This document shows positions 1,283 through 18,791 of a stretch of DNA of 32,824 nucleotides, in pieces. Where the stretch lies: positions 1 to 32,824 of the forward strand of contig PBPM01000028.1 of assembly GCA_002724635.1 (NCBI GenBank), written 5' to 3'. The position numbers and the translations under genes were made by a program. The first letter of the stretch is position 1, and each line of letters opens with the position of its first letter. The notes under the pieces are model-generated. The model did not search any database. It was not told the origin of the DNA and was given only the letters and a program-made list of their open reading frames with translations. This stretch comes from Rhodospirillaceae bacterium. GTDB taxonomy: Bacteria; Pseudomonadota; Alphaproteobacteria; UBA6615.

Positions 1283-2617
1283 ATGGGCCACCGTCCGGAA
1301 TCCGGGGCGGCGCCGGCCGACTATGTCGTCGTGGGCGCCAACCACAAGACTAGCAGTGTCACGTTGCGGGATCGACTTTTTGTCGAGGGCGCCGACGTGC
1401 CGGCGCTCCTTGCGAGGTTGCGCACCGGCGGGTTCAACGAGGCGATTATCGTATCCACCTGTGACCGGGTGGAGGTTCACGGCGCCGCGGTCGACCCGGT
1501 GTGCGCGGCGGCAGCCGGCCGCGATCTGCTCGCGTCACGCGCGGGCGGGTACGAGGGCCTGCCGGGCGGCGCGATTTTCGATCTGACCGGGGATGCAGCG
1601 GTGCGACATGTGTTTGCCGTCGCCGCGAGCCTGGAGAGTGTGGTGGTCGGCGAGGCGGAGGTGCTGGGCCAGATAAAGGCGGCCCACGCGAAGGCGGCCG
1701 AGGGCGGGGGTGCCGGTACGGCGCTTGAGTCCCTGATGCAGCAAGCCTATGCCGCAGCCAAGAAGGTGCGTGCGGAAACGGCGATCGCGGAGGGGCCCGT
1801 CTCGATGGCGGCAGCGGCGGTGAAGGCCGCGGGGAGCCTGTTCGGCAGACTCGAGAATGTTTCGGCGTTACTCGTCGGTCCGTCGGAGATGGGAATCCTG
1901 ATGGTCGATCACTTTCGGGGTGGCGGATTGCGCCGGGTCACGGTGGCGGCCCGCAACGCGTCCCGCGCCGCCGCCCTGGCGCAAATCGTCGACGGACACA
2001 GCGTGACCTATGACGATATTCCGGATGCGCTCGTCGATGCCGATCTTGTGATCGGTGCGGCCGGTCTCGGACGCCACATGATTACGGCGGAGATGCTGCG
2101 TGCGGCTCTTCGCGCACGCCGTCGCAAGCCGGTTTTCGTTCTCGATGTCGCGATCCCGGGTGATGCGGATCCCCGAATCGCGGATCTCGACGACGTCTTC
2201 TTATATGACCTCGACAATCTCGAGGCGATCGCGCGGTCGAACCGCGACATGCGCGATGCCGCTATGCAGGCGGCTTGGGCCATCGTCGACGATCATGTCG
2301 ACGCGTTCCGGGTCCGGCAGGCCGAACGTGAGGCGGTACCGGTGGTCGCCGAGCTACGGACCCGGTTCGGGGCTGTGCGCGACACGCTGCTGACCGAGTA
2401 TCCGCGCGCGGATGCGGAGGAGGCCACCCGGCGCCTGATCAACCGCCTCCTGCATGAGCCGTCGGCCGCCCTGCGCGAGGCGGCGCGCACGACAGGCGCG
2501 GAGAACCCGGTGGCAGAGACGGCAAGGCGCTTGTTCGCGCTGGCGGATAACCAGAGTGATGATGATACCGAAAGGCGGGAGGGGCGGAAAGCGGACCCCT
2601 CCGGAAGCGAGGACTGA
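1283..2617 (+). CDS. hemA: Glutamyl-tRNA reductase
   Basis: This enzyme reduces glutamyl-tRNA-Glu to glutamate-1-semialdehyde with NADPH, the first committed step of C5-pathway tetrapyrrole synthesis. The 444-residue protein shows [15 protein letters not shown] near the N-terminus, the catalytic cysteine C60 in STCDRVEV, and [13 protein letters not shown] in the catalytic domain. A nucleotide-binding domain ([10 protein letters not shown] region) and a helical dimerisation domain follow. The last 25 or so residues are charged and low in complexity. Many well-known alphaproteobacteria make 5-aminolevulinate with the C4 enzyme ALAS, so a C5-type HemA is a useful lineage marker. Its TGA shares one base with the prfA ATG, which points to translational coupling. 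Confidence 0.95.
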
Positions 2618-3705
2618 TGAGCCTGGATGAAAAACTCGACCGTGTGGTGGAGCGTCACGCCCAATTGGCCGACATGCTGGCGCAGACCGACGGCAGCGAT
2701 CCGCAGGAATATGTCCGCCTGTCGAAGGAATATTCCGACCTGAGTCAAGTCGTCGAGACCGTACTCGCACTTCGCGCCGCGCGCGAGGAGATCGTCGGGC
2801 TCGAGGAGATTCTTTCGGACGAGGGCGGCGACACTGAGATGAAGGAGCTCGCCGAGGCTGAGATCGAGGAACTGCGCGGGCGCGTGCCCCAGCTCGAGCA
2901 GGTGCTTAAGATCATGCTACTGCCGAAGGACGAGGCGGATGCGAAGAATGCAATCCTCGAAATCCGTGCCGGGACGGGTGGCGACGAGGCAGCGCTGTTT
3001 GCGGCGAACCTGTTCCGAATGTACCAGCGCTATGCCGAGCACAAGGGCTGGAGGGTCGAGGTGATGGATTCCAGCGACACTGGAATCGGAGGTTTCAAGG
3101 AGATCGTATCATCGATCAGCGGCCAGGACGTGTTCTCGCGCCTGAAATACGAATCCGGTGTCCACCGTGTGCAACGGGTACCTGAAACCGAGAGTAGCGG
3201 GCGGATTCATACCTCTGCGGCCACTGTCGCCGTGCTGCCGGAAGCCGAAGAAGTTGACATCGACATTGCCGAGAGCGACCTGCGCATCGACACCTACCGC
3301 GCGTCGGGGCCGGGCGGGCAATCGGTGAACACTACCGACAGCGCGGTCCGCATCACGCATGAGCCGACTGGGATCGTGGTCACCCAACAAGACGAGAAAT
3401 CCCAGCACAAGAACCGGGCCAAGGCCATGCGCGTCCTGCGCGCGCGTCTCTATGAGCATGAGCGCCAGCAGATTGACGCCGAGCGCGCAGCGTCCCGGCG
3501 CAGCCAAGTGGGCTCTGGCGACAGGTCCGAGCGCATCCGAACGTACAACTATCCTCAGGGGCGGGTAACCGACCACCGAATCAACCTGACTCTTCATAAG
3601 CTCGACCGCATCCTCGACGGGGAGGGGCTTGATGAACTCGTCGATTCGCTCACAACAGAGGAACAGGCGGCCCAACTCGCCGAGGACGATGGCACCGATG
3701 AATGA
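2617..3705 (+). CDS. prfA: Peptide chain release factor 1
   Basis: RF1 reads UAA and UAG in the ribosomal A site and triggers peptide release. The 362-residue protein carries the GGQ hydrolysis motif at residues 233-235 within [17 protein letters not shown], the same numbering as in E. coli. The PxT-type stop-recognition tripeptide appears as PET in [15 protein letters not shown]. The N-terminal 100 residues are acidic and helical, as expected. The ATG at 2617 overlaps the hemA stop by one base. The end overlaps prmC, whose product methylates the GGQ glutamine, so enzyme and substrate are made from neighbouring genes, the common bacterial arrangement. Confidence 0.97.
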
Positions 3706-12161: not shown

Positions 12162-13982
12162 CTAGCGGCCGACGGCATAGGCTTCTTGGAAGCGGGGATG
12201 CGCCGCGCTTTTCAGGAACCAGCCTTGCGCGCCCTGTGCGCGGCCCACCGCCGTCATGCGGCCCAACGCCCAGTCACCGACCACGGTCATACGGTGGCCG
12301 CGTTCGCGCATGGCCGCGATGACGTCTTTGGCATAGCGCCCCTCCGCCTTGACTTCACCTGGCTGGAAGGTGCGCGGATAGAAGCTCGAGGGGAGATGGT
12401 CCGTGTGGAAGTTGGGCGCGTCGATTGCGGCCTGCAGGTCGTAACCGTGGTGGATGTGGCGCAGGAACATGGACAGCGCCCACTGGTCCTGAGCGTCGCC
12501 GCCGGGCGTACCGAAGGCGAGCGCCGGCTGGCCGTCGTGCAGGGCCATTGTCGGGCTGAGGGTTGTGCGCGGGCGGATGCCGGGCTTTAGGGTGGTAGGG
12601 AAACCCTCCTGCAGCCAAAACATCTGCGCCCGGGTGCCGAGACAGAATCCGAGCGACGGAATGGTCGGCGAGGACTGCAACCAACCGCCAGATGGCATGC
12701 AGGCGACCATGTTTCCCTCGGCATCAGCGGTGTCACAATGGACGGTGTCGCCATTCGCGCTACTGGGTTTGGCATCGGGTTCGCCGACCTCGGCGCGTGC
12801 CGCGTTGGGCTCGCCTGCACCCGGTGCGGTGTCGGCGGCGTGGAGATCGAAGATCGTAAATTCCGCGAGCGACGGGATGCGGTCGTCCGGGGCGCCGGGT
12901 TGGAACTCGAGTGAGGCTTCGTCGCCTACCATTGCGCGACGCGCATCGTTATAGGCGTCGGACAGAAGCGTTTCGAGTGGTACGTCGTTGACTGTTGGAT
13001 CGCCATACCAAGCCTCGCGGTCGGCCAGCGCCAGCTTCGCACACTCGACCTGGGTGTGCATGAAGTCCGGACCCAGCGGGTCCATCGACTCGATTTCGAA
13101 GCCCTTGAGTAGGGCCAGCTGCTGCAGAAACACGGGCCCCTGGCTCCACGCGCCGGGCTTGCAGATGGTGTAGCCGGCATAGTCGTAGTTTGCCGGCTCT
13201 TCGATCGTCGCCCGCCAGTTTGCCATGTCCTCGCCGGTCAGGAGGCCGCCATGAACTTCACCGGACGAATCTAGCCATTCGGTGGTGCGGCAGAAATTAT
13301 CAATTTCTTCGGCAATGAAGCCCTCGTAAAAGACGCGCCGCGCTGCCTCTATCGTGTTTTCCCGGTTTCCGCCGATCGCCTCTGCCTCATCGAGCAGCCG
13401 CTTATAGGTCGCGCCGATCACAGGGGTGCGGTGCATAGTGCCGATCGCGGGGGCCGCGCCGTCGACCAGCCAGGTCTCGGCCGACGTGGGCCAGGCCTTT
13501 TGGAAGAGCTCTTCCACCCCGCCGATGATCGTGTTCATCATCGGCACCACCGTATAACCGTCGCGGGCATAGGCAATGGCCGGTTCGATCACGTCGCGCA
13601 GGGACAGGCGACTATAGTCGCGCAGCATCAGCATCCAGGCGCCGAATGCACCGGGTACGCAGGGCGCGAGGAGACCGGTACCGGGCACTAGTTTGAGGCC
13701 GAGCCTGCGATAGGCCTCGATCGTCGCCGCAGCCGGCGAAACACCCTGACCGCAAATCACCTCAACCTTGCCGGTGCGCGCGTCGTGCAGGACGATCGGC
13801 AGATCGCCCCCGGGGCCGTTCTGATAGGGATGCACGATTTGCAGCGCGAGCCCGGTGGCGACGGCGGCGTCGAAGGCGTTGCCACCAATTTCGAACATGC
13901 GCCAGCCAGCCATCGTCGCTAGATAATGGGTCGAGGCGACCATGCCGTGGGTGCCACGGATTTCCGGTCGTGTGGTAAACAT
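12162..13982 (-). CDS. Gamma-glutamyltransferase family protein
   Basis: This is an N-terminal nucleophile hydrolase of the gamma-glutamyltranspeptidase family, which cleaves gamma-glutamyl bonds after self-processing into two subunits. Visible are GMVASTHYLATMAGWRMFE and GGNAFDAAVATGLAL at the start, GPGGDLPIVLHD, and the likely processing site with nucleophile threonine near residue 412 in GDTVHCDTADAEGNMVA. A PSGGWLQSSPTIPSLGF stretch stands where classic enzymes have their TIN and GSG elements. I see no clear signal peptide, so a cytoplasmic place is possible. The frame is open to 14075, but the ATG at 13982 starts the conserved region and leaves 606 residues. It diverges from dgcN across about 106 bases and heads a pair with the MATE gene. 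The exact substrate is unknown. Confidence 0.85.
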   Translation of the reverse strand: MFTTRPEIRGTHGMVASTHYLATMAGWRMFEIGGNAFDAAVATGLALQIVHPYQNGPGGDLPIVLHDARTGKVEVICGQGVSPAAATIEAYRRLGLKLVPGTGLLAPCVPGAFGAWMLMLRDYSRLSLRDVIEPAIAYARDGYTVVPMMNTIIGGVEELFQKAWPTSAETWLVDGAAPAIGTMHRTPVIGATYKRLLDEAEAIGGNRENTIEAARRVFYEGFIAEEIDNFCRTTEWLDSSGEVHGGLLTGEDMANWRATIEEPANYDYAGYTICKPGAWSQGPVFLQQLALLKGFEIESMDPLGPDFMHTQVECAKLALADREAWYGDPTVNDVPLETLLSDAYNDARRAMVGDEASLEFQPGAPDDRIPSLAEFTIFDLHAADTAPGAGEPNAARAEVGEPDAKPSSANGDTVHCDTADAEGNMVACMPSGGWLQSSPTIPSLGFCLGTRAQMFWLQEGFPTTLKPGIRPRTTLSPTMALHDGQPALAFGTPGGDAQDQWALSMFLRHIHHGYDLQAAIDAPNFHTDHLPSSFYPRTFQPGEVKAEGRYAKDVIAAMRERGHRMTVVGDWALGRMTAVGRAQGAQGWFLKSAAHPRFQEAYAVGR

Positions 13983-14075
13983 GGGCAGGGCGTCTCCGCG
14001 CGGGTTGAGTGCGGACCATAACGTCCTGTCAGCGGGCACAGCAACCGTGCCTGAATTTGAGCTCTGGCAGCCCAC

Positions 14076-14082
14076 GGGGAGG
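14076..14082 (+). promoter_or_regulatory. Shine-Dalgarno site deciding the TTG start of dgcN
   Basis: GGGGAGG at 14076-14082 lies 6 bases before the TTG at 14089. No in-frame ATG upstream has a comparable site, and the reading frame upstream of 14089 runs antisense into the start of the gamma-glutamyltransferase-like gene. Confidence 0.7.
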
Positions 14083-14088
14083 CGGAAA

Positions 14089-15096
14089 TTGCAGATTGAA
14101 CACCCTTATCTGATGTTCTTGGGCGACGCGGCGGATCAGCTTGCCGCGAAGACAGCCCAAGGAATCGTCCACTGGCGCCGCGACTGGTGCGTCGGCCAGT
14201 TGCGGCTGGACGATTGCAATGCGAACCTCGGCCTGCCCGAGATGACTATCGCCGAGGCCGCTGCCGCGGGTGTGCGGACGCTCGTCATCGGCGTCGCAAA
14301 TCGTGGTGGCGTTATCTCCGAGAGCTGGATCGAGACCATTCTCGCCGCGATAGGGGCGGGGATGGACGTGGCCTCGGGCCTGCATGCGCGTATCACGGAC
14401 ATTCCGGGGGTCGCTGACGCCGCAGCGGCGAATGGTGGACAGCTTTTCGATGTGCGCCATCCGACCGAGACTTTTGAGGTGGGCTCGGGTGTACGGCGGC
14501 CGGGCAAGCGTCTGCTTGCCGTGGGCACGGACTGCTCGGTAGGCAAAATGTACACGGCTCTAGCTATCGACGCGGAATTGACGGGGCGGGGCGTCGACTG
14601 CGACTTCCGTGCAACGGGGCAGACCGGCATCTTCATCGCAGGGTCCGGTGTGTCCGTGGATGCTGTTGTTTCGGATTTCATCTCCGGTGCGACCGAATGG
14701 CTGGCTCCGGCCAATGCGCCCGATCACTGGGACTTGGTCGAGGGGCAGGGCTCGCTGTTCCATCCTTCCTATGCCGGGGTAACCATGGGGTTGGTCCACG
14801 GTGCCCAGCCCGACGCGCTGGTGCTGTGCCACGAACCCACCCGAACCCATATGCGTGGCCTGCCACATCAGGCCTTGCCTGAGGTCAGCGCCTGCATCGA
14901 GGGACATCTGGCCGCGGCGCGGCTGACCAACCCGGACGCGCGATGCGTGGGTATCGCTGTGAACACGTCGGGTATGGACGGCGACGATACGCGCGTCGCC
15001 CTACTTGGTGAACTCTCGGATCGCTTCGCGATGCCGGCGCTCGACCCGGTTCGTGAAGGTGTCGGAGCGATCGCGGACGCTCTGGAGCGTATCTAG
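14089..15096 (+). CDS. dgcN: D-glutamate N-acetyltransferase DgcN (DUF1611 family)
   Basis: DUF1611 proteins named DgcN acetylate D-glutamate to N-acetyl-D-glutamate, the first step of a D-glutamate breakdown route described in marine bacteria. The protein opens with HPYLMFLGDAADQLAAKTA, a strong family signature. It has a P-loop GTDCSVGK at residues 146-153, ATGQTGIFIAG, VEGQGSLFHPSYAGVTMGL and CHEPTRTHMRGLP. I start it at the TTG at 14089 (335 residues) on the strength of the GGGGAGG upstream, although the frame is open from 13942. The dgcA gene follows after 3 bases, so they form an operon. It diverges from the gamma-glutamyltransferase-like gene and may share a regulatory region with it. 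The function rests on family and neighbour. Confidence 0.87.
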   Translation: MQIEHPYLMFLGDAADQLAAKTAQGIVHWRRDWCVGQLRLDDCNANLGLPEMTIAEAAAAGVRTLVIGVANRGGVISESWIETILAAIGAGMDVASGLHARITDIPGVADAAAANGGQLFDVRHPTETFEVGSGVRRPGKRLLAVGTDCSVGKMYTALAIDAELTGRGVDCDFRATGQTGIFIAGSGVSVDAVVSDFISGATEWLAPANAPDHWDLVEGQGSLFHPSYAGVTMGLVHGAQPDALVLCHEPTRTHMRGLPHQALPEVSACIEGHLAAARLTNPDARCVGIAVNTSGMDGDDTRVALLGELSDRFAMPALDPVREGVGAIADALERI

Positions 15097-15099
15097 CCC

Positions 15100-16080
15100 A
15101 TGGCTGAACTCGGCGTGCAGATCGAGACCTTCCCGCTCAGGCATCACTTCACCATCTCACGTGGCAGGAAGACCGAAACGGTCGTTGTGTTGGCGACGCT
15201 GCGAGACGGCGAGATCGTTGGTCGCGGGGAATGCTGCCCGAATACGCGCTATGACGAGACGCCCGAAGATGTGGCGGCGGATATTCGCGCCATGGCGCCT
15301 GCACTGCGCGATGGTCTAACGCGCGATGCGTTACAGGACGTGATGCCGCCGGGTGCCGCGCGGAACGCGCTCGACTGCGCGCTTTGGGATTTTGAGGCGC
15401 ATGCGTTCGGAGTCCCGGCCTGGGCCCTAGCCGGTTTGAATGAACCATTTCTGGTTGAGACTGCCTTCACCCTGAGCGCCGATGACCCGGCCGAGATGGC
15501 GGCTGCGGCTGCGGCAAACGCGACGCGCCCCTTGTTGAAACTGAAGCTCACGGGCACGAATGATCTTGACCGGGTGAGCGCTGTTCGCGCGATAGCGCCC
15601 GAAACCCGCTTGATCGTCGATGCCAACGAGGCATGGTCGGCCACGGCCTATGAGGCCATGGTGCCGACATTCGTAAAGCTGGGCGTGGAACTAATCGAAC
15701 AGCCGTTTCCGGCCGGTGACGACGACGCGCTCGGCGATCTGGCGCGCCCCATTCCGGTTTGCGCGGACGAGGCGTTTCGTGATTGCGACAGCCTCGCCGG
15801 ACTGGCGGGAAAATATGATCTCGTGAATATCAAGCTCGACAAGACGGGCGGGCTGACGGCTGCCCTGCAGGCGGCTCGGGGCGCACGTGCGGCCGGTTTC
15901 GGCGTCATGGTTGGCTGTATGGTGGGGACTAGTTTGGCCATGGCACCCGCCCTTCTGGTGGCGCAGGCGGCGGCGTTTGTCGACCTCGATGGGCCGTTGT
16001 TGCTGGCGCGCGATCGCACGCCCGGGCTCGTCGTTGACGGGAGCCGTTTGTCTCTCCCATGTTCAGGGCTATGGGGCTGA
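15100..16080 (+). CDS. dgcA: N-acetyl-D-glutamate racemase DgcA (enolase superfamily)
   Basis: This enolase-superfamily enzyme is related to L-Ala-D/L-Glu epimerases. As the partner of DgcN it is expected to convert N-acetyl-D-glutamate to N-acetyl-L-glutamate. The 326 residues show the two-base catalytic layout: KLK at 147-149, metal ligands D174 (IVDANEAW), E200 (LIEQPF) and D223 (CADEA), and the second lysine K245 in NIKLDKTGG. The VGCMVGTSLAMAPA loop is also typical. Start ATG 15100, 3 bases after the dgcN stop. If the partner gene is set aside, dipeptide epimerase is the alternative reading. A deacylase is needed to finish the route to L-glutamate; see the N-formylglutamate amidohydrolase at 16786-17670. 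Confidence 0.87.
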   Translation: MAELGVQIETFPLRHHFTISRGRKTETVVVLATLRDGEIVGRGECCPNTRYDETPEDVAADIRAMAPALRDGLTRDALQDVMPPGAARNALDCALWDFEAHAFGVPAWALAGLNEPFLVETAFTLSADDPAEMAAAAAANATRPLLKLKLTGTNDLDRVSAVRAIAPETRLIVDANEAWSATAYEAMVPTFVKLGVELIEQPFPAGDDDALGDLARPIPVCADEAFRDCDSLAGLAGKYDLVNIKLDKTGGLTAALQAARGARAAGFGVMVGCMVGTSLAMAPALLVAQAAAFVDLDGPLLLARDRTPGLVVDGSRLSLPCSGLWG

Positions 16081-16344: not shown

Positions 16345-16436
16345 TTATTGCATGTGCGAAAAGGTAACTCTGCTTGGCGCTGTAGAGCGTTTCCTCCCTA
16401 TGACTTCGGGCCGTGGTTTCCACGGCCCTTTTTTTG
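16345..16436 (+). ncRNA. Candidate small RNA or 3'-UTR-derived RNA with a CCTCCC motif
   Basis: The 413-base gap between dgcA and the GNAT remnant is unusually AT-rich from about 16190 to 16340 and contains no convincing gene. Its right part has TTTCCTCCCT at 16390-16399, an anti-Shine-Dalgarno-like single-stranded motif, just before a strong Rho-independent terminator. Unpaired CCUCC motifs are the target-binding element of several alphaproteobacterial small RNAs. A possible promoter is TTGTTA about 17 bases before TAACTC, with a poor -10. The 5' end is a guess. The alternative is the processed 3' end of the dgcNA transcript. Small open frames here look accidental. Confidence 0.35.
16408..16435 (+). 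terminator. Strong Rho-independent terminator
   Basis: A perfect 9-bp stem GGGCCGTGG (16408-16416) and CCACGGCCC (16420-16428) closes a TTT loop and is followed by seven T. It points to the plus strand and would end the dgcNA transcript or a small RNA. Confidence 0.9.
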
Positions 16437-16493
16437 TTAGTTTTAAAGCGCGGTGAACGCCGAGTTTTAATCGTCCGGCATGGTCTCGGCTCC

Positions 16494-16785: not shown

Positions 16786-17670
16786 TCAGGCGGCGAGCGC
16801 CGCGGGTTTGAGCGCGGCGAGACGCGCGGCGAGCAGGTTCATATTCTCTGCGACCACAGCGAGTTCGTCGGTGCGCTCGATGGCGGCTTCGTCCATGTAG
16901 AGGGCGCGGTTTATCTCGATCTGTAGCGCATGGACGCCCCTTTCCGGTTGTCCGTAGTTTCGGGTGATAAAGCCACCGGAATAGGGCGCGTTCCGTACGA
17001 CGGTGTATCCCATTTCGTGCAGCGTCTCTTCGACGAGGCCGGTCAGGGAACGAGTGCAGGCGCGGCCGTGAGCATCACCGAGGATGAAGTCGACCTGCCG
17101 TCGCCGCCCAGCATCATTCTCCATCGGGCCGCCGATCGACGGCATAGAATGACAGTCGATCAGGATGCAAACTCCGAACTTCTCATGAGTCTGAGAGATG
17201 AGATCTTCCAGCGCCGCGTGATATGGCTGGTAGAAACGCTCGATTCGCTCACGGGCCTCGGCGAAGGAGAGCTTGCATGAATATATTTCCGCGCCGCTGG
17301 CGACCACCCGGGCGATCGTGCCCAGGCCCGCCGCCACCCGCGGTGATCGCTTTTTCACGAAGGCCGGCAATTTTTCTATGAACATCGCCGGGTCGAGTTC
17401 GTATGGCTCGCGATTCGGGTCGACGAACGCGCGCGGGAACAATGCCTTTAGCAGCGGGGCACCGTGATGCGGCACTTGGGCGAATAATTCGTCGACGAAG
17501 CAGTCTTCCGACCGACGGATGGCCTGAGCGTCGAGCCTAGATGCCGCCAGAAATGTCTCCGGATAGGCGCGTCCGCTGTGGGGCGACGAAAAGACCAAGG
17601 GCACACGCTGCTCCGCGGGTGCGAGTATCTCGATCGCGGCGTCGGAATCGTTAACGGTTTTGCGGTCCAT
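16786..17670 (-). CDS. N-formylglutamate amidohydrolase family protein
   Basis: This family (HutG-like, zinc-dependent) hydrolyses N-formyl-L-glutamate to L-glutamate and formate, and relatives act on other N-acyl amino acids. The 294 residues are intact and show VFSSPHSGRAYP, RRSEDCFVDELFA, DPNREPYELDP, LIDCHSMPS, NAPYSGGFITRNYGQPERGV and LQIEINRALYMDE; the SPHSG and DCHSM histidines are likely metal ligands. No other hut genes are in the window, so a role in histidine breakdown is not supported. The nearby dgcN-dgcA pair yields N-acetyl-L-glutamate, so a deacylase role there is possible but is only inference. It also diverges from the dead cpdR gene, a pairing I recall from other alphaproteobacteria. 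Confidence 0.88.
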   Translation of the reverse strand: MDRKTVNDSDAAIEILAPAEQRVPLVFSSPHSGRAYPETFLAASRLDAQAIRRSEDCFVDELFAQVPHHGAPLLKALFPRAFVDPNREPYELDPAMFIEKLPAFVKKRSPRVAAGLGTIARVVASGAEIYSCKLSFAEARERIERFYQPYHAALEDLISQTHEKFGVCILIDCHSMPSIGGPMENDAGRRRQVDFILGDAHGRACTRSLTGLVEETLHEMGYTVVRNAPYSGGFITRNYGQPERGVHALQIEINRALYMDEAAIERTDELAVVAENMNLLAARLAALKPAALAA

Positions 17671-17712
17671 AGCATGCCTGATGTAACGAAAAGCGGCGGT
17701 ACTGTCACCCTT

Positions 17713-17728
17713 GACAGGTTTGCCTGTC
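17713..17728. repeat. Short inverted repeat between the amidohydrolase and cpdR genes
   Basis: GACAGG and CCTGTC are separated by TTTG, a 6-bp perfect dyad about 45 bases upstream of the amidohydrolase start. It could be an operator or a small hairpin in the leader; nothing further supports either. Confidence 0.3.
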
Positions 17729-17863: not shown

Positions 17864-18220
17864 ATGGTGCGGATACTGCTTGGCCAAGACAATCAATTGA
17901 TGCGTGTATCCCTGACCCGCGCGTTGGAGCGCAGCGGGCACGAGGTCACGGCTCTACCCTAAGGGCTTTCTTTGGTCGATGCGGTGTCGGCACGCGCCTA
18001 TGATCTGCTGATCGCGGACATGGTCATGCTGGGCATCGTAGGCATTAAGGTGTCGCGGTAGACAAGCAAGGTCAATACCGACCCGAAGGTTCTGCCTATC
18101 GCCGGCTTTGCAGCGGTCGCGATGAACGCGCGCGAGGAGATGGGCGACTTCGAGGTCCTATCGAAGCCCTTCCATCTGCGTGACTTGGTCGATCATGTGG
18201 ATGCGGAACTCCAGCAGTAG
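17864..18220 (+). pseudogene. cpdR: Response regulator cpdR, inactivated by two in-frame stops
   Basis: In Caulobacter CpdR is a single-domain response regulator that, when unphosphorylated, delivers ClpXP substrates; CckA-ChpT controls it. A single frame of 119 codons matches the whole protein: MVRILLGQDNQLMRVSLTRA, LERSGHEV, YDLLIADMVMLGI, LPIAGFAAVAMN and VLSKPFHLRDLVDHVDAEL. TAA at 17960-17962 and TAG at 18059-18061 interrupt it. The phospho-acceptor aspartate of LLIAD is kept, but the acidic pocket reads GQDN instead of the usual EDD-like sequence, and MPGMDGIEL has become MLGIVGIKV. Key-site drift as well as two stops argues for true decay rather than read error. No frameshift is present, so loss seems recent. 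Confidence 0.88.
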
Positions 18221-18225
18221 GTCGC

Positions 18226-18252
18226 CTGACGGCCGTTATTCTTTGCTATAAT
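18226..18252 (+). promoter_or_regulatory. Sigma-70-type promoter of the cupin gene
   Basis: A perfect TATAAT at 18247-18252 is preceded by TGC, giving an extended -10 (TGCTATAAT). CTGACG at 18226-18231 is a fair -35 with a short 15-base spacer. It lies about 38 bases before the cupin ATG. Confidence 0.5.
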
Positions 18253-18289: not shown

Positions 18290-18619
18290 ATGCCCAACAC
18301 CGCCGAAATCAACTATACGCCCGATGCTGACGACCGTACGGCAGAGCTGAGCGAGATTGTCCATGAGGATAACCGCTCGCGCGTCGTGAAGTACACTATC
18401 AGGCCCGGTGAGCAGACCGGCTGGCATACTCATGAACTCGACTATGTGGTGATTTACCTGACCGCTGGGGAACTGACCTCGCATTTCGCCGATGGTACCA
18501 CCAAGGTGTTCACATATGAACCTGGGAAGGCCGGCTCCTACACGGCGCCGGTCGAGCATAATGCGGTCAACACTGGCGATACGGACGTGGTTGGCTACGA
18601 GATTGAGTATAAGCGGTAA
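18290..18619 (+). CDS. Small cupin domain protein
   Basis: This 109-residue single-domain beta-barrel protein has the cupin 2 pattern: YTIRPGEQTGWHTHELDYVV supplies the first motif (GxxxxxHxHxxD), and YEPGKAGSYTAPVEHNAVN supplies the second (PxxxxHxxxN). Metal binding through H, H and H is likely. Family roles are too varied (dioxygenases, isomerases, sensors) to name a substrate. GGGAGGAG sits just before the ATG and an extended -10 promoter lies upstream. It is probably a single-gene unit. Confidence 0.85.
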   Translation: MPNTAEINYTPDADDRTAELSEIVHEDNRSRVVKYTIRPGEQTGWHTHELDYVVIYLTAGELTSHFADGTTKVFTYEPGKAGSYTAPVEHNAVNTGDTDVVGYEIEYKR

Positions 18620-18716: not shown

Positions 18717-18791
18717 GGGCGCGTAGCTCAGCGGGAGAGCACTGTGTTGACATCGCAGGGGTCGCTGGTTCAATCCCAGCCGTGCCCACCA
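18717..18791 (+). tRNA. tRNA-Val (GAC anticodon)
   Basis: The cloverleaf folds cleanly. The acceptor GGGCGCG pairs with CGTGCCC (one G-T), the D arm is GCTC/GAGC, and the anticodon stem CTGTG/CGCAG closes the loop TTGACAT with anticodon GAC (valine, GTC/GTT codons). The T arm is GCTGG/CCAGC around TTCAATC. Discriminator A and an encoded CCA end the 75-base gene. It marks the left edge of the polysaccharide locus. Confidence 0.96.

Follow-up and report, generated by a model that had tools for sequence, protein, structure and literature searches.

In known relatives of the lineage studied here, CpdR is an adaptor that, when unphosphorylated, makes ClpXP ready for cell-cycle substrates. The Caulobacter protein both primes and localises ClpXP in this unphosphorylated state, and it is turned off when CckA, acting via ChpT, phosphorylates it (PMC8973945, PMC11519897). 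CpdR of C. crescentus is a single receiver domain of about 120 residues. The intact orthologs in the family studied here have the same build and mostly keep the residues E8, D9, D10, D52, T80 and K101, with D9Y in one genome (G002). In contrast, the cpdR frame in the window, that is, the whole 32,824-nt stretch of DNA analysed here, carries three in-frame stops and a degraded acidic pocket, and searches of its assembly (G000) recovered neither ChpT, CtrA nor RcdA, and only a scrap of cckA.

Several comparable losses have been described. Two Caulobacteraceae lineages lost cpdR along with their flagella (PMC12700997), and several alphaproteobacterial clusters are devoid of CpdR-RcdA (Brilli et al. 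2010, PMC2877005). In the Rhodospirillales, CtrA has a link to motility and is dispensable in the tested species; chpT, cckA and divL occur in only 27–36% of the surveyed genomes (PMC8116508). The window lineage resembles Phenylobacterium immobile and Acaudatibacter (PMC12700997) in being apparently non-flagellated, nested among flagellated relatives, and losing cpdR and rcdA. Those lineages, however, have no cpdR at all, the gene being listed with c-di-GMP-tied regulators, whereas in the window lineage ctrA, chpT and a functional cckA are also gone, and cpdR and divK are still recognisable as pseudogenes. Likewise, the same modules are missing to a varying degree from Rhodospirillales and Rickettsiales clusters (PMC2877005, PMC8116508), with GcrA kept in the Rhodospirillales cluster; the data there are presence/absence profiles, drawn from distant genera, whereas here intermediate stages are seen in one genus. 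The original prediction had presented the loss of cpdR as surprising, which is overstated given these published absences (PMC2877005, PMC12700997) and an empty or decayed cpdR site in four other members of the window's own family (G004, G007, G013 and G015). Other Alphaproteobacteria are already known to have lost cpdR and ctrA; the present case is new and well resolved, its novelty lying in the capture of such stages together with pseudogenes of two circuit members. In the portions of the literature available to our search, no report of a pseudogenised cpdR was found for this lineage.

The cpdR frame and its site

The ancestral cpdR frame spans window positions 17864–18229 on the plus strand and comprises 121 codons followed by a TGA stop at 18227–18229, as defined by syntenic intact orthologs, a codon alignment with the genus orthologs and the receiver domain found by Pfam (Response_reg, PF00072, E=5e-13). 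Our translation of 17864–18220 agrees exactly with the two in-frame stops described originally. Codon 33 is TAA (17960–17962, plus strand) where orthologs have GAT or GAC (Asp), and codon 66 is TAG (18059–18061, plus strand) where all five intact genus orthologs have CAG. The TAG at 18218–18220 (plus strand) had been taken for the natural stop; codon alignment makes it a third premature one, at codon 119, where four of the five have CAG and G001 has GAG. No indel was found over the 121 codons. The frame is 70–75% identical to the intact syntenic frames of five genus genomes (G001, G002, G003, G005 and G006), which excludes a chance resemblance and, at the conserved hutG–cpdR site, assigns it to the CpdR lineage. 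The open frame with acidic pocket, phospho-acceptor Asp, Thr/Ser and Lys is no longer there. The pocket AEDD has become GQDN (17882–17893, plus strand; E8Q and D10N in the alignment with orthologs), the loop MPGIDG reads MLGIVG with P56L and D59V, and the switch residue T80 is replaced by Ala, with the phospho-acceptor D52 and K101 being kept. The drift first noted for the pocket and the MPGMDG loop is thus confirmed. In total, 26 residues of the window frame, stops included, are absent from all nine orthologs, each of which has 0–8 private residues of its own.

The site itself has a conserved order, hutG – cpdR – cupin – tRNA-Val, and an intact 121-codon cpdR lies between divergent hutG and the cupin gene, followed by tRNA-Val(GAC), in the same five genomes. 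In the window, the divergent neighbour is an intact hutG-like N-formylglutamate amidohydrolase gene (16786–17670, minus strand; PF05013, E=8.7e-79), which is 87–91% identical to its counterparts in G001, G003, G004, G005 and G006 and 83% identical to that in G002. Downstream are an intact cupin gene (18290–18619, plus strand; PF07883) and the tRNA-Val(GAC) gene (18717–18791, plus strand). A hutG-linked cpdR also occurs in other Alphaproteobacteria, for example Mesorhizobium and Aminobacter, at about 40–54% identity.

Comparison of substitution rates revealed that dN between the window cpdR and the genus orthologs is 0.15–0.18 against 0–0.064 among those orthologs (NG86), and that omega is 0.13 on the window branch versus 0.034 elsewhere (2dlnL = 11.3) in a codon model fitted on the species-tree topology, all these omega and dN values being approximate given synonymous sites near saturation. 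That omega stays below 1 on this long branch is consistent with a gene that functioned for a long time and was inactivated recently. With no intact paralog in the assembly, an intact copy at the corresponding site of relatives, and relaxed selection, cpdR at 17864–18229 is, judged from its sequence, a genuine, relatively young, unitary pseudogene. The original call of a cpdR pseudogene is accordingly supported, and slightly understated the damage.

The relay in the window's assembly and across the family

The source assembly comprises 2.95 Mb in 137 contigs, with a completeness of 100 and a contamination of 6.15%. ClpX and GcrA are intact in it. Neither ChpT (PF10090), RcdA (PF07323) nor FliG was found, and no CckA was detected at E<=1e-40. 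The best match to CtrA is 34% identical, against 71–75% in seven genomes with full-length ctrA, so no CtrA ortholog was found. Of cckA, which lies directly upstream of recA in G006, a 52-residue scrap (residues 821–872, 65% identity) remains upstream of recA. A functional CpdR pathway would thus lack its phosphodonors CckA and ChpT and its target CtrA in this assembly, and retain ClpX. The CtrA, CckA and DivK queries represented the Caulobacter proteins, and are validated by the orthologs at 50–79% identity that they recovered in relatives; the absences rest on sequence and profile searches of draft MAGs. Of the possibilities raised originally, a second cpdR copy is excluded at the sensitivity of these searches, the only other receiver matches being 32% and 25% identical and lying in frames of 489 and 238 residues, whereas the suggestion that the lineage no longer needs the gene gains support from the missing chpT, ctrA and full-length cckA and from a dead divK.

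This divK (G000:C95, about 54486–54851) is the second dead member of cpdR's circuit. It has TAA at codon 27 and TAG at codon 58, has lost its start codon and bears D53N at the phospho-acceptor, all free of indels and within a 6.9-kb block that is collinear with G006. In cpdR and divK alike, the 3' third has changed less than the rest (5 of 40 codons in cpdR, 4 of 40 in divK). This 5'/3' contrast is not significant for cpdR (p=0.51), and for divK it reaches p=0.006 post hoc; the 3'-end conservation is suggestive only.

In addition, divK of G002 (G002:C5:102526–102894) has a single TAA at codon 28 and is otherwise intact; this stop coincides with D9Y in CpdR and with a cckA cut down to residues 778–881. 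G002 possibly represents an earlier stage of the same decay.

Family members can be arranged in a series from a full relay (G006, G022) through an undetected relay with intact cpdR (G001, G011), double pseudogenes (G000) and remnants (G004) to clean deletions (G007, G015). At one end, G006 and G022 have the full set of cckA, chpT, ctrA, fliG, divK and cpdR. In G005, cpdR and divK are intact, cckA is truncated, chpT is interrupted and ctrA survives as a 63-residue remnant. In G001, cpdR and divK are likewise intact, chpT and ctrA were not found, and of cckA only the receiver end (residues 752–880) persists, with drifted motifs. G011, which is 97% complete in 7 contigs, has intact cpdR and divK with no detectable cckA, chpT or ctrA. 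The cpdR of G004 is a decayed, 5'-truncated remnant (residues 78–121, SKPF lost), and divK has no match in this genome. At the other end, G007 and G015 have neither cpdR nor divK, with hutG and tRNA-Val still adjacent. The series suggests that ctrA, chpT and cckA were lost before cpdR and divK. A four-gene tree places G000 next to G004 and shows G003 and G006, which bear the relay, nested with the relay-poor G001 and G005, which indicates recurrent losses. Furthermore, ctrA lies about 9–10 kb from fliG in G006, G008 and G012, with chpT alongside in G006 and G012; loss of a motility region could therefore remove ctrA and chpT together. Loss of RcdA was rejected as the trigger of cpdR decay, since RcdA is already absent from the relay-bearing G006 and G022.

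As a separate observation, the recA match of G021 (G021:C20:34367–35257) is only 63% identical and reads through six TGA codons, which sets it apart from all other family members; this recA is possibly frameshifted or damaged.

A putative course of the decay and its rivals

These data enable us to propose that the whole CckA–ChpT–CtrA/CpdR/DivK circuit is decaying after loss of the relay, with cpdR and divK seen mid-process and the process recurring in the family, a reading to which we assign a probability of about 85%. Initially, the lineage would have lost its flagella, cckA, which adjoins recA, and the ctrA–chpT pair, which flagellated relatives carry about 10 kb from fliG. With no upstream kinase relay and no CtrA target, CpdR and its upstream regulator DivK would lose their selective value, and a non-flagellated lineage of this kind would gain little from keeping DivK or a switchable CpdR. 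Afterwards, cpdR and divK would decay by point mutation, with ClpXP and GcrA remaining. The order of events, the non-motility of this marine and apparently non-swimming lineage, and a surviving ClpXP that works without CpdR are what we infer from the gene content. The milder change at the 3' ends, which uniform neutral decay does not predict, counts against this reading, though the cpdR contrast is non-significant; so do the mixed nature of the bin, described below, and the draft state of the MAGs behind the absences.

A fragmented, mixed bin might suggest that the stops in a functional cpdR were introduced by faulty sequencing or assembly, or by a chimeric contig. Indeed, clpX and recA each occur twice in G000 (C10/C52 and C14/C38) at 87–88% DNA identity, and the assembly thus appears to be a mixture of two related species. 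It yielded only one cpdR and one divK, and the two pseudogenes might stem from two related organisms; ctrA and chpT, in turn, were found nowhere in the bin. The lesions themselves make such an artefact extremely unlikely. Three independent nonsense codons are accompanied by some 23 private missense substitutions, pocket and switch residues among them, with a raised dN and no indel, and 26 private residues cannot come from two base-calling errors. Both flanks, hutG and the cupin gene, are intact and 82–93% identical to their genus orthologs, and the sister genome G004 has an independent decayed remnant at the same site. It is also very unlikely that cpdR is still expressed, be it by readthrough, by TAA/TAG recoding or as a functional C-terminal fragment. 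The frame is free of frameshifts, codons 81–114 contain only two private residues, and D52 and K101 persist; against this, the pocket acids and T80 are lost, and the 5'/3' contrast of cpdR lacks significance. Both TAA and TAG would need recoding, which we rejected because intact window genes end in TAA, TAG and TGA and the window encodes an RF1-kind release factor (2617–3705), reading TAA and TAG.

The retention of ClpX and GcrA would accord with another adaptor or a paralog having replaced cpdR, such that polar proteolysis is rewired yet still regulated. This is very improbable: no cpdR paralog was found in the genome, and CckA, ChpT, CtrA, DivK and RcdA are missing or dead, so that CpdR's known input has gone, as has its known principal target. 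A further reading, possible but tentative, holds that CpdR and DivK have a relay-independent job in relay-less sisters and that the window pseudogene marks a lineage where this job ended; CpdR might, for example, serve ClpXP as an adaptor that is constitutively active or is phosphorylated by other means. This reading is based on the constraint on cpdR in G001, G011, G020 and G021, where CckA, ChpT and CtrA were not found intact (G011 being the strongest case), which is as strong as that on the remaining branches (approximate omega 0.023 versus 0.041). Alternatively, this constraint may reflect a time lag after recent loss of the relay, recognisable pieces of cckA persisting in G001 and G020. 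The strong purifying selection on cpdR and divK in sister genomes with no detected relay is thus a puzzle of lag or relay-independent function, and it raises the question of what CpdR and DivK do in the absence of a kinase relay. Under decay following relay loss, the preferred reading, an isolated broken gene becomes a placeable step in the dismantling of a textbook alphaproteobacterial cell-cycle circuit.

Other elements around hutG

The hutG/cpdR intergenic region contains a 14-bp inverted repeat, TGTCACCCTTGACA (17703–17716; TGTCA-CCCT-TGACA, including TTGACA), identified in a nine-genome alignment. Genomes of the genus keep it even when their cpdR is dead or shortened, and it is degraded in G011. 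A viral origin of the locus was rejected, as viral contigs contain no cpdR relative and no phage match was found; so was a plasmid origin, the plasmid matches among those listed covering the tRNA-Val region only.

On the other side of hutG, the window encodes a dgcN–dgcA pair (N-acetyl-D-Glu racemase and acetyltransferase) adjoining a gamma-glutamyltransferase gene (13942–16080), which together form a D-glutamate catabolism cluster beside hutG. Between dgcA and hutG lies a small RNA of the mmgR/suhB family (16365–16443, plus strand; RF00519, 45.3 bits, above the gathering threshold). Its 3' half, consisting of the CCUCCCUA motif and a terminator, shows 93–98% conservation within the genus, and its linkage to hutG extends to many other Alphaproteobacteria.
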